Assembly: GCA_002898775.1 (NCBI GenBank)
Contig: BEHK01000004.1
Location: 1-45,938, forward strand
DNA from: a bacterium HR08
GTDB taxonomy: Bacteria; Acidobacteriota; Blastocatellia; HR10
Reading direction: 5' to 3'
DNA: 45,938 nucleotides
Part shown: in pieces, positions 9,983 to 39,794 of the stretch
Numbering within the stretch: position 1 is the stretch's first letter
Layout: every line of letters begins with the position of its first letter
Made by a program: the position numbers and the translations under genes
The notes under the pieces: model-generated
Told to the model about the DNA's origin: nothing
The model's input: only the letters and a program-made list of their open reading frames with translations
The model's database searches: none

Positions 9983-11188
9983 ATGCGCGGGCATCGGGGG
10001 AGACAAGACGCGGAGGTCCGAGGCTCCCTGCTCTACTGCCTGCTGGGGGGATTTCTCCTGTGGACCCTCACAAGCATCGGCTGCCGCCGCTCGGAGATGT
10101 CCGAGCCGATTGTTTTTCCAGCGGGGCGCTTTACATCGGCGCAGCAGTGCGGCACCTGTCATCGAGATATCTATACGGCCTGGCGCGGCTCGCAACATGC
10201 GCGCGCGGCCCAGAATCCCATCTTCCGCGAATCCTACGAAGAGGCGGTGAAGGTCGCCGGAGAGGCCGCGACTCGGCTCTGCCTCACGTGCCACGCGCCG
10301 ACGGTCGTGCTCACCGGTGATTACGCCCTCGCGCAAGAGGTGACGCGAGAGGGGATCACCTGTGATTTCTGCCATTCCCTGAAGGGGACTGACCTGGAGC
10401 GACGCGAGCACCCCTTCCTCCTCGAAGTCGGAGCGACCAAGTATGGCCCAATCCGCGATGCCGCTTCAACCGGACATCGCGTGGCGTTCTCTGAGTTCCA
10501 TCTCAGCTCGCTCCAGTGTGCCGGATGTCATGAATATCGCAACGCGCACGAGGTGCCGATCCTCTCGACCTATTCGGAGTGGGAGCTGTATCGGCAGCGG
10601 GGAGGGGACAAGGAGTGCCAGCAGTGTCATATGCCGCAGGTGCTGGCTAACATCGTGGATCCGAAGGTGAAGCGCGTTCAGGGCGCTTTCGTGAATCTCC
10701 ACACAATGCCCGGAGGACATGCGCGCGATCAACTCGTGCGCGCGTTGGAGATGCGGATCGTGGAGGCACAGCGCGCGCCGCGCGGATTGCGCGTGAGAGT
10801 TCGGATTCGCAACGTCGGCGCCGGTCATGCCGTGCCCACCGGCAGTCCGACGCGGCGGGTGATCCTGCGCGTGGAGGTCACGACCGAGAGCGGACACCGC
10901 GTCCGGCAGGAGCGCGTCTATCAACGCCTCCTGTTGGACGAACACGGGCGGGAGATTCGTCGGGATAGTCTCCTCTTCACCGAAGCGCGCGCCGTCGCCC
11001 GCGATACCCGATTGGCCCCTGCCGAGCAGCGCATGGAGGAGTTCGTGCTGCCGGTGCCGACCGATGAGAACCTCACGATCACGGCGACGCTCGTCTATCT
11101 CTATTCGCCGCATGAGCGGCCGGAGACGGAGACGCGCATCGAGTTCCTCTCCGAGAGGAAGGAGTTGCTCTCGCGATGGATTCGGTGA
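9983..11188 (+). CDS. Pentahaem cytochrome c lipoprotein
   Basis: The 401-residue product has a signal peptide ending in a lipobox-like LTSIGC, so it is probably a lipoprotein. Five CXXCH sites follow: CGTCH, CLTCH, CDFCH, CAGCH and CQQCH. The segment FTSAQQCGTCHRDIYTAW is typical of cytochrome c554-related multihaem proteins. The haem region ends near residue 235. The C-terminal 165 residues are a haem-free, beta-rich domain (VRVRIRNVGAGHAVPTGSP onward). ATG 9983 was chosen because the signal peptide starts there and GGCAGGTG precedes it. It probably passes electrons in the periplasm. Its position before the Rieske/cytochrome b cluster suggests a link to that complex, but the 213-base gap means cotranscription is unproven. 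Confidence 0.85.
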   Translation: MRGHRGRQDAEVRGSLLYCLLGGFLLWTLTSIGCRRSEMSEPIVFPAGRFTSAQQCGTCHRDIYTAWRGSQHARAAQNPIFRESYEEAVKVAGEAATRLCLTCHAPTVVLTGDYALAQEVTREGITCDFCHSLKGTDLERREHPFLLEVGATKYGPIRDAASTGHRVAFSEFHLSSLQCAGCHEYRNAHEVPILSTYSEWELYRQRGGDKECQQCHMPQVLANIVDPKVKRVQGAFVNLHTMPGGHARDQLVRALEMRIVEAQRAPRGLRVRVRIRNVGAGHAVPTGSPTRRVILRVEVTTESGHRVRQERVYQRLLLDEHGREIRRDSLLFTEARAVARDTRLAPAEQRMEEFVLPVPTDENLTITATLVYLYSPHERPETETRIEFLSERKELLSRWIR

Positions 11189-20913: not shown

Positions 20914-21339
20914 TCACCTCCCGGGTGGTGGTGGTTCGATCAAACATTCGAGGGCCAGGCAAATACTCATCTGAATCGGGCAGATGCCGAAGGAGCCTTG
21001 AGAATCCGGAGGAGATTCGCATGCATCGGGGATCACGTCCGTGATGAGCTCCTTTCTCCCCGGTACGACATCGAAGTCGAAGCATACTTCGCAGGCTCCT
21101 TCCGAATTACAACATTGAAAGGAGCTGTCTCGACAGTCGTAGTTGCAGAGGAATTGTGCCATATTCGGCAGAAGAGGGGAAGAAGCAAGGACGCCCGCTG
21201 GCAGTGGGACATCACTGCGACCGGACCGACTCCGCCCTTGGGGAAGAGCCGTGAGAGCCATCAAGATCGCGAGGCCCATCGCCAGGCGCATCGCCTTGCT
21301 CCTGAAGGAGTGGGTCGCATCCCATGCCCCTCGAGTCAT
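20914..21339 (-). CDS. Small secreted cysteine-rich protein
   Basis: The 141-residue product starts at ATG 21339, with GGGAGGTC 7 bases upstream. A 16-residue N-extension precedes a signal peptide (MRLAMGLAILMALTALPQG). The mature region has ten cysteines in a tight pattern: CNYDC, CC, C-x2-C, then four spaced Cys. That suggests several disulfides or a metal site. The last residues are EPPPPGR. I do not recognise the family. There is no tryptophan in the mature part, so it is not a TTQ or CTQ amine dehydrogenase subunit. It is the first gene after the GACA-repeat promoter. Confidence 0.75.
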   Translation of the reverse strand: MTRGAWDATHSFRSKAMRLAMGLAILMALTALPQGRSRSGRSDVPLPAGVLASSPLLPNMAQFLCNYDCRDSSFQCCNSEGACEVCFDFDVVPGRKELITDVIPDACESPPDSQGSFGICPIQMSICLALECLIEPPPPGR

Positions 21340-21373
21340 GGCCTGACCTCCCGGCTGGAGTCTTGCGGCCGAG

Positions 21374-21406
21374 ATTATACTGTCTGTCTGTCTGTCTGTC
21401 TGTCAA
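21374..21406 (-). promoter_or_regulatory. Promoter with GACA-repeat spacer (likely phase-variable)
   Basis: Reading the minus strand, a perfect TTGACA (21401-21406) is followed by a 21-base spacer (21380-21400) and a perfect TATAAT (21374-21379). The spacer is five GACA units plus one base, and the last four bases of the -35 hexamer are the sixth unit. Loss of one unit would give the ideal 17-base spacer. The ATG at 21339 is 34 bases after the -10, with GGGAGG between. At the present length the hexamer 17 bases upstream of the -10 is CAGACA, a 4/6 match. Confidence 0.75.
21380..21404. repeat. Tetranucleotide microsatellite (TGTC)6
   Basis: Plus-strand bases 21381-21404 are exactly six TGTC units, and base 21380 is the C of one more partial unit. 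It is the only such microsatellite I see in this window. It sits between the -35 and -10 boxes of a minus-strand promoter. Confidence 0.95.
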
Positions 21407-21586
21407 GTCCGTTCGGAATCGTCGGGGGGAAGGCCGGGGACTCCTTACGGGGAGAGACGATGAGGTCTCGGAGGCCTTCGGGCGCCCTTACTACAAGCGG
21501 CGCCGCATTGCCGATGTCTTCGATCGTGTGGTAAGTTTAAATTTTCACTTGATGCGCATATTCTCGATGAAGGAGGAAGTCTGGCG

Positions 21587-36917: not shown

Positions 36918-39794
36918 TCACCGCTTGAGGACGAAGGTTCCGTCGCCTGCGTTCAGCAGCGTGAGCAACTGAGCGAACGGCGATCCGACCACGGCGATAT
37001 CCACTCGCCCATCGGCATTGAAATCGCCGACGGCGAGCGAGGTGGGATTGGCGAGCGTTCGCACGCTGCGCACGTTGCGGGCCGATCGCTCCTCTCCAAC
37101 TTCAATGACGGAGAGGCTGTTGCCGGAGAAGTTCGCCGTCGCGAGGTTCAGCGTCCCCGGCACGAATTCACCCATCACCAGGGCCATCGGTCCTTGCCCG
37201 ACCGAAAGATCCGTGCGGGCGAAAGTGAGCGATCCGGGCCGGGAGAGTAAGACCGAGATGGCATCATGCGCGAAGCTGGCTGCGGCGATGTCCGGTCGGC
37301 CATCCCGATTGAAGTCAGCGACGGTCACAGCCACCGGTCCCTCCCGCACCTGCAGACGCCGCGCTTCGGCAAATCCCCCCCGCCCGTTGCCCAGAAGCAG
37401 CGAGACGTCATTGGAGAGGAAGTTGGTCACGGCCAGATCGAGCACGCCGTCCAGATCGAGGTCGGTCGCCACGAGCGCGCTCGGTCCATGGCCGAAGATG
37501 GGGATGTTGAAGACTTCCGCGAATCGCCCATCCCCGCGCCCGAGCAAGATCGTGACGTTGTCCGAGCCGAAGTTGGCCACGGCCACATCCAAACGGCCGT
37601 CCCGATTGAAATCGGCCACGGCGAGCGAAGAGGGGTTGACGCCGCCGATCAGGAAGATGGAGGAGAGGCGGCTGAACGTCCCATCCCCATTGCCCAGGCC
37701 GACGGTGAGGGTGTTGGAGAGATAATCGGCCGTGATCCAGTCGGTCTTCCCATCGCCGTTGAAATCGCCGATGCCGAGGGCGATCGGACCGTCGCCGACG
37801 GTATAGGTGCGGAACCTTTGGAACGTCCCATCACCTTTGCTGAGGAAGGCGATGACTTGATTGAGCGCGAAGTCGGTGACCAGAAGCCCCGAGTTACCGA
37901 CCTGCGCCGTCTCCGACTCGTCCGCATCGGCGGCTGCTTGACCACTTGTGCTCAACAAGGAGAAGGAAGTGGCAGTCAGCGTCAGGTGGTTCGCGCATGA
38001 ACCCGTGGGCGTCGTTGGGCAGAAATCGCAGGCGTTGCGCACGCCGTCCCCATCCTCATCTGGACGCGGGCAGTCGGGACTTGAGCCCGTGCACGCTTCG
38101 TTCGCCGGGCAACTGTCTCCGGGGTGGCATGGCGTTCCCTGGGGTTTCAACGGATGGGTGCAGGAGCCGTTCTGGCACACGTCATCCGTACAGCTCTTAC
38201 CGTCGTCGGTGCAGGGAGTGTCGTTGGGCTTGGGGCTAAAGGATGTCTGGGACGTCTGTGGGTCGCAACGCTGACACTCATTATTCGGATTCGTCGCTCC
38301 GCTGTCGTAGCACGTTCCACCGACCAAGCACTTGCCCGACTGGATCGGATGGGTGCATTGGCCGTCGGAACAGACGTCATCGGTGCAAGGGAAATTATCC
38401 GAAGTGCAAGCGGTGCCGTCCCGTTTGTTCGGGTGGGTGCACTGGCCGCTGCCGTTGCACACGTCATTGGTGCACTCATTGCCATCATCGGTACAGGAGG
38501 TCTCAGAAGATTTGAACCGATTATCCGGACAGGTGGCGCTATTGCCCGTGCAGTACTCGGCCTCATCGCACTCGCCCGCCGCTTGACGACACACCGTGCC
38601 CGGAGACTTGAACGCATCCATGCACATGGTTGACGTTCCCGAACAGTGATCGTTCGCATCGTCGTCGCACAGCCCACCCTGCGACGTGCCGGTGCAGTGC
38701 TGGGTTGAAGAGGCAAACCGACAAGAGAGTGTGCAGCAAGACCCCTGTTGCCCATTATTCGATCCGAGGTCGCACTGCTCATTGCCTTTTACCAAACCAT
38801 CCCCGCAGATGGGCGAGCAAGAGCTCGGCTGCCCGCTGCAGTTCCAGCCGGGTTCGATCTGACAGGAAGCGGAACAGCCATCGTCGCCGTTCGTGTTTCC
38901 ATCATCGCACTGTTCGCCCGATTCGACGATGCCGTTGCCGCATTGGCCACCTCCCTCACAGGGAATAGTCACGGAGCCAACTGTGTCACTCTCAGAAGTG
39001 TCGAAATCCTTGCGTTCTGAAGGTTCATCGCCATTATCGAATGTATCTGCTCCATCGCCGCCAAACAATTCGTCATCTCCAAGGCCACCCTTGAGAAGAT
39101 CGTTGCCGTCGCCACCACGAAGGTTATCATTTCCGTTGCCTCCAGAGAGCCGATCATTGCCTCCCTGACCATCGAGACGATCTTGTCCATCGCCTCCCGT
39201 GAGGCAGTCGTCTCCGTTACCACCATCTATGTCGTCCTGCCCCCCTTCGCCATGGAGGGTATCGTTTCCATCGCCACCATCAATTCTGTCGTTGTCGCTA
39301 CCGCCGAAGATCGTATCGTTGCCGCCTTCGCCTCGAATATTGTCGTTGCCACCTTCGCCATAGATCGTGTCGTCGCCGTTGCCGCCCCAGATGTCATCGT
39401 TGCCGCTCCCACCGGAGATCCTATCGTTGCCACCATTGCCGTACAGATTGTCATTACCTCCTTCGCCATTAATCACATCATTCCCGCCACCGCCTCTGAT
39501 CGTATCGCTACCCCCGCCGCCATTGATAGTGAGATCGGCTGTTGAAGTGGAACAATCAATGTTGTCGTTGCCATTTGTGCCGGTGATCGTCGTGCCCGAG
39601 ATGGTGACCCCGAAGCTGACTGTGCAGCTCACGCTTTGCAGGGGACTTCCATCAGAGGGCTTCGTGAACAGCACCCAGGCAGCGGCTCCCAGCACCAGGG
39701 CGGTGAGAAGTGTTCGTTCGAGTTTAGGGTGTCGGCGCAGCCGACGGCGGCCGCGTCCGGCTCCCCACCGAATGAGCGGTTCACAGTGGAGCAT
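36918..39794 (-). CDS. Mosaic exoprotein: RTX repeats, cysteine-rich disintegrin-like region, FG-GAP propeller
   Basis: The 958-residue protein starts at ATG 39794 (AAAAGGAGAG upstream) with an N-terminal hydrophobic segment (TLLTALVLGAAAWVLF). Residues 70-250 are RTX calcium-binding nonapeptides (GGNDNIRGEGGNDTIFGG). Residues 279-600 form a Cys-rich region: an opening DUF4215-type box (CGNGIVESGEQCDDGN), then CRQAAGECDEAEYCTGNSAT, which matches the disintegrin cysteine pattern, and several CTDD-x-CTHP repeats. Residues 615-958 hold about seven FG-GAP blades (VADFNRDGRLDVAVANFG). It is probably a secreted calcium-dependent adhesin. Base composition of the RTX part is lower in GC than its neighbours. 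Confidence 0.88.
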   Translation of the reverse strand: MLHCEPLIRWGAGRGRRRLRRHPKLERTLLTALVLGAAAWVLFTKPSDGSPLQSVSCTVSFGVTISGTTITGTNGNDNIDCSTSTADLTINGGGGSDTIRGGGGNDVINGEGGNDNLYGNGGNDRISGGSGNDDIWGGNGDDTIYGEGGNDNIRGEGGNDTIFGGSDNDRIDGGDGNDTLHGEGGQDDIDGGNGDDCLTGGDGQDRLDGQGGNDRLSGGNGNDNLRGGDGNDLLKGGLGDDELFGGDGADTFDNGDEPSERKDFDTSESDTVGSVTIPCEGGGQCGNGIVESGEQCDDGNTNGDDGCSASCQIEPGWNCSGQPSSCSPICGDGLVKGNEQCDLGSNNGQQGSCCTLSCRFASSTQHCTGTSQGGLCDDDANDHCSGTSTMCMDAFKSPGTVCRQAAGECDEAEYCTGNSATCPDNRFKSSETSCTDDGNECTNDVCNGSGQCTHPNKRDGTACTSDNFPCTDDVCSDGQCTHPIQSGKCLVGGTCYDSGATNPNNECQRCDPQTSQTSFSPKPNDTPCTDDGKSCTDDVCQNGSCTHPLKPQGTPCHPGDSCPANEACTGSSPDCPRPDEDGDGVRNACDFCPTTPTGSCANHLTLTATSFSLLSTSGQAAADADESETAQVGNSGLLVTDFALNQVIAFLSKGDGTFQRFRTYTVGDGPIALGIGDFNGDGKTDWITADYLSNTLTVGLGNGDGTFSRLSSIFLIGGVNPSSLAVADFNRDGRLDVAVANFGSDNVTILLGRGDGRFAEVFNIPIFGHGPSALVATDLDLDGVLDLAVTNFLSNDVSLLLGNGRGGFAEARRLQVREGPVAVTVADFNRDGRPDIAAASFAHDAISVLLSRPGSLTFARTDLSVGQGPMALVMGEFVPGTLNLATANFSGNSLSVIEVGEERSARNVRSVRTLANPTSLAVGDFNADGRVDIAVVGSPFAQLLTLLNAGDGTFVLKR

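Follow-up and report, generated by a model that had tools for sequence, protein, structure and literature searches.

The GACA promoter of the window and the genes behind it

The window, a stretch of DNA of 45,938 nucleotides, contains a presumed two-gene operon that is preceded by a promoter with a tetranucleotide repeat in its spacer. The features of this locus are listed below in the order in which they are read.

21407..21414, minus strand: upstream family element (family consensus AAAnGGGC; window copy GAACGGAC)
21401..21406, minus strand: -35 box TTGACA, the GACA of which doubles as repeat unit 1
21381..21404, minus strand: slippage-prone (GACA)6 array, overlapping the -35 box
21380-21400, minus strand: 21-bp spacer, all bases of which but one belong to the (GACA)6 array
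21374..21379, minus strand: -10 box TATAAT; the G before this box is nearly invariant in the promoter family
21362..21373, minus strand: downstream family element (family consensus nnnGGCCGCCAG; window copy CTCGGCCGCAAG)
21347..21352, minus strand: Shine-Dalgarno-like GGGAGG
20914..21339, minus strand: gene for a 141-aa Cys-rich protein with an N-terminal hydrophobic signal-like segment
19939..20910, minus strand: gene for a 323-aa secreted beta-propeller-like protein, second in the presumed operon

Read on the minus strand from 21406 to 21374, the promoter is TTGACA-GACAGACAGACAGACAGACAG-TATAAT, which can also be written TTGACA-(GACA)5-G-TATAAT. Both hexamers match the consensus perfectly and lie 21 bp apart, as the original prediction had it, and TRF detected a 4-bp unit in 6.2 perfect copies at 21380-21404. 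Because the -35 box ends in the first repeat unit, the window array is (GACA)6. Since this GACA counts as a unit, an array of n units gives a spacer of 4(n-1)+1 bp, and the earlier calculation that loss of one unit would leave 17 bp (n=5) is correct. Transcription is predicted to start at about 21367, within the downstream element.

The array is real and lies far beyond chance. Tetranucleotide arrays of at least 3 units occur only three times in 380 kb of the window genome, the longest being 13 nt, and a first-order Markov simulation of 8 Mb yielded no array longer than 16 nt, against 25 nt at the window site. In the whole window assembly, all GACA arrays of at least 4 units share the context TT(GACA)nGTATA. 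A perfect short tandem repeat thus stands between recognisable -35 and -10 boxes, the arrangement by which promoter-spacer phase variation is identified.

The coordinates first given for the 141-aa gene hold, as does the propeller gene downstream of it. The propeller fold proposed for the latter is backed by a structure model of moderate confidence (pLDDT 64, pTM 0.70); nearly all of its top structural matches are beta-propellers (NHL domains, sialidase/neuraminidase-type proteins and glycoside hydrolases). The 141-aa protein has 10 cysteines after residue 25 (8.6%). Neither it nor its counterparts gave a Pfam or NCBIfam match above cut-off, and folding this protein by itself gave a model of too low quality to be informative (pLDDT 45). 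Its orthologues lie behind the same promoter type in the congeners Bacterium HR10 (HRbin10) and MAG JZ-3.bins.73 (JZ-3). The HRbin10 orthologue, on contig C14, has one in-frame TGA and an interrupted array with a spacer of 14 bp, and is possibly a decaying copy. Elsewhere in the window (39289-39431), a 27-bp period repeat lies in a stretch of lower GC; read on the minus strand, the repeat resembles the GGxGxD calcium-binding repeats of the RTX type.

A promoter family restricted to one Acidobacteriota lineage

To look for further members, we used pattern searches and a sequence model derived from the known sites. AAAnGGGC-TT(GACA)nG-TATAaT-nnnGGCCGCCAG is the consensus of the family; it is followed by a Shine-Dalgarno sequence and a start codon, the latter usually 30-60 nt past the -10 box. 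All sites, comprising 28 with intact boxes and seven degenerate or variant ones, point one way relative to the gene. The window assembly, which is 73% complete, holds 10 sites, and HRbin10 at least 13. A few are found in JZ-3, one to two in an uncultured Blastocatellia MAG (G003), one in a fourth congener (G004), and one in the sister genus (G005). The element is absent from the remaining genomes of the class sample, and a scan of 84,980 species genomes returned, outside the lineage, only unrelated single matches that have no repeat. The GACA promoter element is therefore restricted to this Acidobacteriota lineage. Matches to the pattern in other phyla were single chance matches without repeats; the same was true of matches in viral contigs, which thus give no support to the idea that the promoter came from phages.

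The original prediction concerned one promoter. The site is real, but it belongs to a multi-locus family with ten or more members each in the window assembly and HRbin10: several unlinked loci share the same repeat and mostly precede secreted products, which is how a contingency-locus set, or phasome, is recognised. One HRbin10 contig (C12) carries four GACA promoters within 8 kb. Another (C59) ends at 10970, part-way through an array of six or more units and just before TATACT; loci with GACA arrays may be under-counted, since arrays can break assemblies. In JZ-3, a family member at C23:464608-464632 (minus strand) has a dinucleotide (GA)n spacer of 13 bp instead of GACA, and is followed by a short secreted ORF and then a propeller-like gene.

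The products behind the arrays are mostly secreted Cys-rich orphans. Typically, the first gene encodes a signal-bearing Cys-rich protein of 70-300 aa, most with 4-18% Cys after residue 25, and a few first genes encode propellers or other secreted proteins. A Cys content above 4% was found in about 20 of 27 products and a signal-like segment in nearly all, while the two together occur in 0.3% of control ORFs; the choice of start favoured signal-like starts in this count, and the ATG linked to a Shine-Dalgarno sequence gives mostly the same genes. Two paralogous secreted proteins of 260 aa (L099 and L110) have a C-terminal tract of ~75 residues in which cysteines are spaced 3-5 positions apart (CGILCGGLCGLGCGLACLL...). 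L099 had no family match in the Pfam/NCBIfam search, and the pair may represent a peptide bacteriocin or a wall protein rich in metal or disulfides.

At several loci, promoter, leader and signal peptide are common to genes whose mature proteins differ, and between species homology often breaks at the promoter or just after it. Genes thus appear to have been exchanged behind a promoter cassette. The upstream flanks of window-assembly contig C146 and HRbin10 C66 are orthologous to ~10 bp from TTGACA, but the genes that follow are different; in HRbin10, the relative of the C146 gene is found on C16, preceded by a GACA promoter of its own. On window-assembly C54 and in the HRbin10 region C12:8360-28141, two to four GACA promoters are clustered in a few kb, and their genes have promoter, leader and signal peptide in common while the mature proteins differ, a pattern of cassette shuffling.

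Array length across sites and between species

At the 28 sites with recognisable boxes, the spacer measured 5 bp (4 sites), 9 bp (10), 13 bp (5), 14 bp (1), 20 bp (1), 21 bp (4), 25 bp (2) and 33 bp (1). Only two of them (14 and 20 bp) are off register by one base, and the rest fit 4(n-1)+1. The seven degenerate or variant sites found with the sequence model have spacers of 5, 9, 9, 13 and 13 bp, the (GA)n spacer of 13 bp, and the HRbin10 contig-end array of at least 6 units. A weak model match on G003:C7 (TTGACC-18 bp-TATACT), which has no GACA array, was excluded as doubtful. Eight orthologous loci could be defined by flanks 75-94% identical, and compared between species rather than between strains of one species:

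Locus A (window): spacers 21 (window genome) / 14 (HRbin10) / 13 (JZ-3 MAG) bp; flanks 75-90% identical
Locus B: 20 / 21 / 5 / 5 bp
Locus C: 9 / 5 bp
Locus D1: 33 / 9 bp
Locus D2: 9 / 25 bp; orthology from the upstream flank, downstream gene differs
Locus D3: 5 / 9 bp
Locus E: 25 / 13 bp; orthology from the upstream flank, downstream gene differs
Locus F: 9 / 9 bp; the sole invariant locus

A fixed length everywhere, the outcome named in advance as speaking against the original prediction, is not what was found, since the window orthologues differ and n varies between species at seven of the eight loci, nearly always by whole units. In addition, one contig carries two paralogous promoters whose 34-bp upstream flanks are identical, with n=9 in one and n=3 in the other. 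Whole-unit differences are the expected footprint of slippage, which is their probable cause. It is very improbable that they reflect arrays collapsed or mis-sized during MAG assembly: although these genomes are metagenome assemblies, and the contig that ends inside an array indicates that arrays can disturb assembly, the arrays are 8-37 nt long, shorter than a read, and each has unique flanks; moreover, independent assemblies agree on the architecture.

None of the ~35 sites of the genus has a 17-bp spacer (n=5) in consensus assemblies, which show only the majority allele, whereas smooth fits to the other length classes lead one to expect about 3-8. The probability of observing no such site is ~0.0003-0.09, varying with the site set and the fit, for a gap that was noticed post hoc and among sites that are not fully independent. 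The gap is suggestive of a special state that the majority sequence of a population seldom shows, and is harder to reconcile with a spacer that has no function; a selective absence of n=5 is easiest to understand if the n=5 state is special.

The commonest arrays in the family have n=2-3, and are so short that switching should be rare. TTGACA is intact at most short-array sites, and five degenerate boxes occur there. Only short arrays had decayed -35 boxes or broken frames; the association of short arrays with decayed genes or -35 boxes has the expected direction and is not significant (Fisher P ~0.3; small numbers). Such short-array copies with disrupted frames or a mutated -35 box would be expected if a mobile or duplicated cassette of promoter plus signal peptide had spread by recombination, in which case the array would be no more than a neutral side effect of the sequence that founded the family, and most copies would be dying. 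The match of C146 and HRbin10 C66 up to ~10 bp of TTGACA, ahead of different genes, points the same way, as do C54 and HRbin10 C24, which match through the leader and then diverge. However, long arrays are nearly all perfect, genes are open at the long-array sites checked, variation comes in whole units and n=5 is missing. As a full account of the arrays this explanation is improbable, and cassette spread and phase variation are compatible with each other.

Spacing rules and the proposed switch

The other perfect-hexamer promoters of the window genome have spacers of 16 bp (six promoters) or 17 bp (one), from which it follows that ordinary spacing rules apply in this genome. The sister-genus orthologue of the window gene (G005:C94) has the promoter TTGACA-GATACAGAGAGAGGGAG-TAAAAT-gcGGTCCGCCA. 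Its non-repeat spacer is exactly 17 bp long, which lends independent support to a working distance of 17 bp, and its downstream element (GG.CCGCCA) matches that of the family, one base closer. The G005:C94 gene itself carries an in-frame stop.

When the sequence found 17 bp from the -10 box was scored as a -35 box, with approximate weights that we set ourselves, n=5 gave TTGACA (6/6), n>=6 gave CAGACA (4/6) and n<=4 gave poor matches. A weak -35 box is thus kept at 17 bp when n>=6 because the repeat unit carries part of the box. For short arrays, a search for an alternative fixed -35 box upstream at 16-18 bp found none. If the family is used by sigma70, as we assume, array length would set three expression levels rather than two, namely off (n<=4), strong (n=5) and weak (n>=6). 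The original prediction is partly supported, and its weak/strong pair of states is modified, as the array offers CAGACA at 17 bp when n>=6; it is unlikely that the 21-bp spacer of the window is simply weak at a long spacing. That 17 bp is optimal is predicted from the computed box matches, in which only n=5 puts a 6/6 box at this distance, and from the sister-genus promoter; the predicted strong state is also the one that is absent from the ~35 consensus sites.

Taken together, it is probable that this dispersed family of sigma70-type promoters, with a (GACA)n microsatellite as spacer, is a multi-locus phase-variation system. Replication slippage would add or remove 4-bp units and so change the distance between the -35 and -10 boxes. 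With n=5, both perfect boxes would be in register and the promoter strong (ON). At n>=6, the boxes would be out of register and a weak promoter would remain, through CAGACA at 17 bp, and at n<=4 almost no -35 box would be left and the promoter would be off. Cell lineages would then differ in which secreted proteins they express, most of these being Cys-rich and an occasional one a propeller; such a repertoire is a phasome. In the host, probably a thermophilic member of the Acidobacteriota, this may help to evade phages or predators, or act as bet-hedging where secreted proteins are costly. Three observations count against such a switch: none of the assembled sites is in the proposed ON state; most sites have n=2-4, at which slippage is expected to be slow and the promoter inactive, yet most of the genes are open; and TTGACA is still intact at most short-array sites, despite the five degenerate boxes. 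The fuller proposal, that hot-spring Acidobacteriota possess a dedicated phase-variation regulon with three levels, in which the strong state is kept rare and only a minority of cells secretes any given Cys-rich protein, is tentative, and we put it at somewhat below even chances.

Part of the same evidence would also be explained if a dedicated sigma factor or activator read the whole cassette (AAAnGGGC-TTGACA ... GTATAAT-nnnGGCCGCCAG), with GACA as a tolerated or regulator-bound linker whose drift is nearly neutral or has a slight tuning effect. Genes unrelated to one another share the conserved upstream and downstream elements, TTGACA persists at spacings that sigma70 could not use, most sites have n=2-3 with open genes, and a search of six genomes found no promoter in the genus that combines the family flanks with a non-repeat spacer of 14-20 bp. 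This explanation is nevertheless unlikely: both boxes fit the ordinary sigma70 consensus in a genome where ordinary promoters have 16-17 bp, the sister-genus promoter has exactly 17 bp, a linker without effect is not expected to miss exactly n=5, and it would be unusual for a sigma factor of any kind, or for a regulator with a fixed register, to accommodate spacer shifts as large as 28 bp.

Most known cases of repeat-driven phase variation come from host-associated pathogens and commensals. The host group here consists of uncultured Acidobacteriota known mainly from hot-spring metagenomes, in which the GACA element is a simple and unique signature. If phase variation is indeed its function, about ten spacer-repeat promoters per genome would mean that this strategy has also evolved in free-living communities, where switching would probably be directed against phages, predators or competitors. 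Orphan secreted Cys-rich proteins would then be marked as products worth switching.

The three levels predicted here have a counterpart in hifA/hifB of Haemophilus influenzae, in which a promoter-region repeat reportedly alters spacing and gives three expression levels (van Ham et al. 1993, cited in PMC11868660 and PMC2791445). In both cases a short promoter repeat shifts the spacing, but that of hifA/hifB is a dinucleotide (TA) in one shared divergent promoter for the fimbriae of a pathogen. In porA, opc and fetA of Neisseria meningitidis, spacer-length phase variation is based on homopolymer tracts (PMC2791445). These genes for surface proteins resemble the GACA family in that a slippage-prone repeat lies between the -35 and -10 boxes, and gain or loss of units alters the distance between them. 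However, theirs are 1-bp steps in a few separate genes, whereas the GACA family has 4-bp steps, a unit that overlaps the -35 box and, in one genome, 10 or more promoters with conserved flanks, in Acidobacteriota with no known host. The nadA gene of N. meningitidis also has a tetranucleotide array near its promoter, with several expression levels (PMC2791445), but the tract lies upstream of the promoter and acts via a repressor and distal elements, while GACA sits between the two boxes. Similarly, H. influenzae has many tetranucleotide contingency loci per genome, acting on surface structures (PMC2651432); these arrays usually lie within reading frames and affect translation, in contrast to the GACA arrays, which are promoter spacers. 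A literature search for phase variation in Acidobacteria, Blastocatellia and hot-spring bacteria, in which subscription journals were thinly covered, returned nothing comparable. The class of mechanism is therefore known, and what appears to be new is the repeat unit that overlaps the -35 box, the design shared by many loci, the organism and the products.
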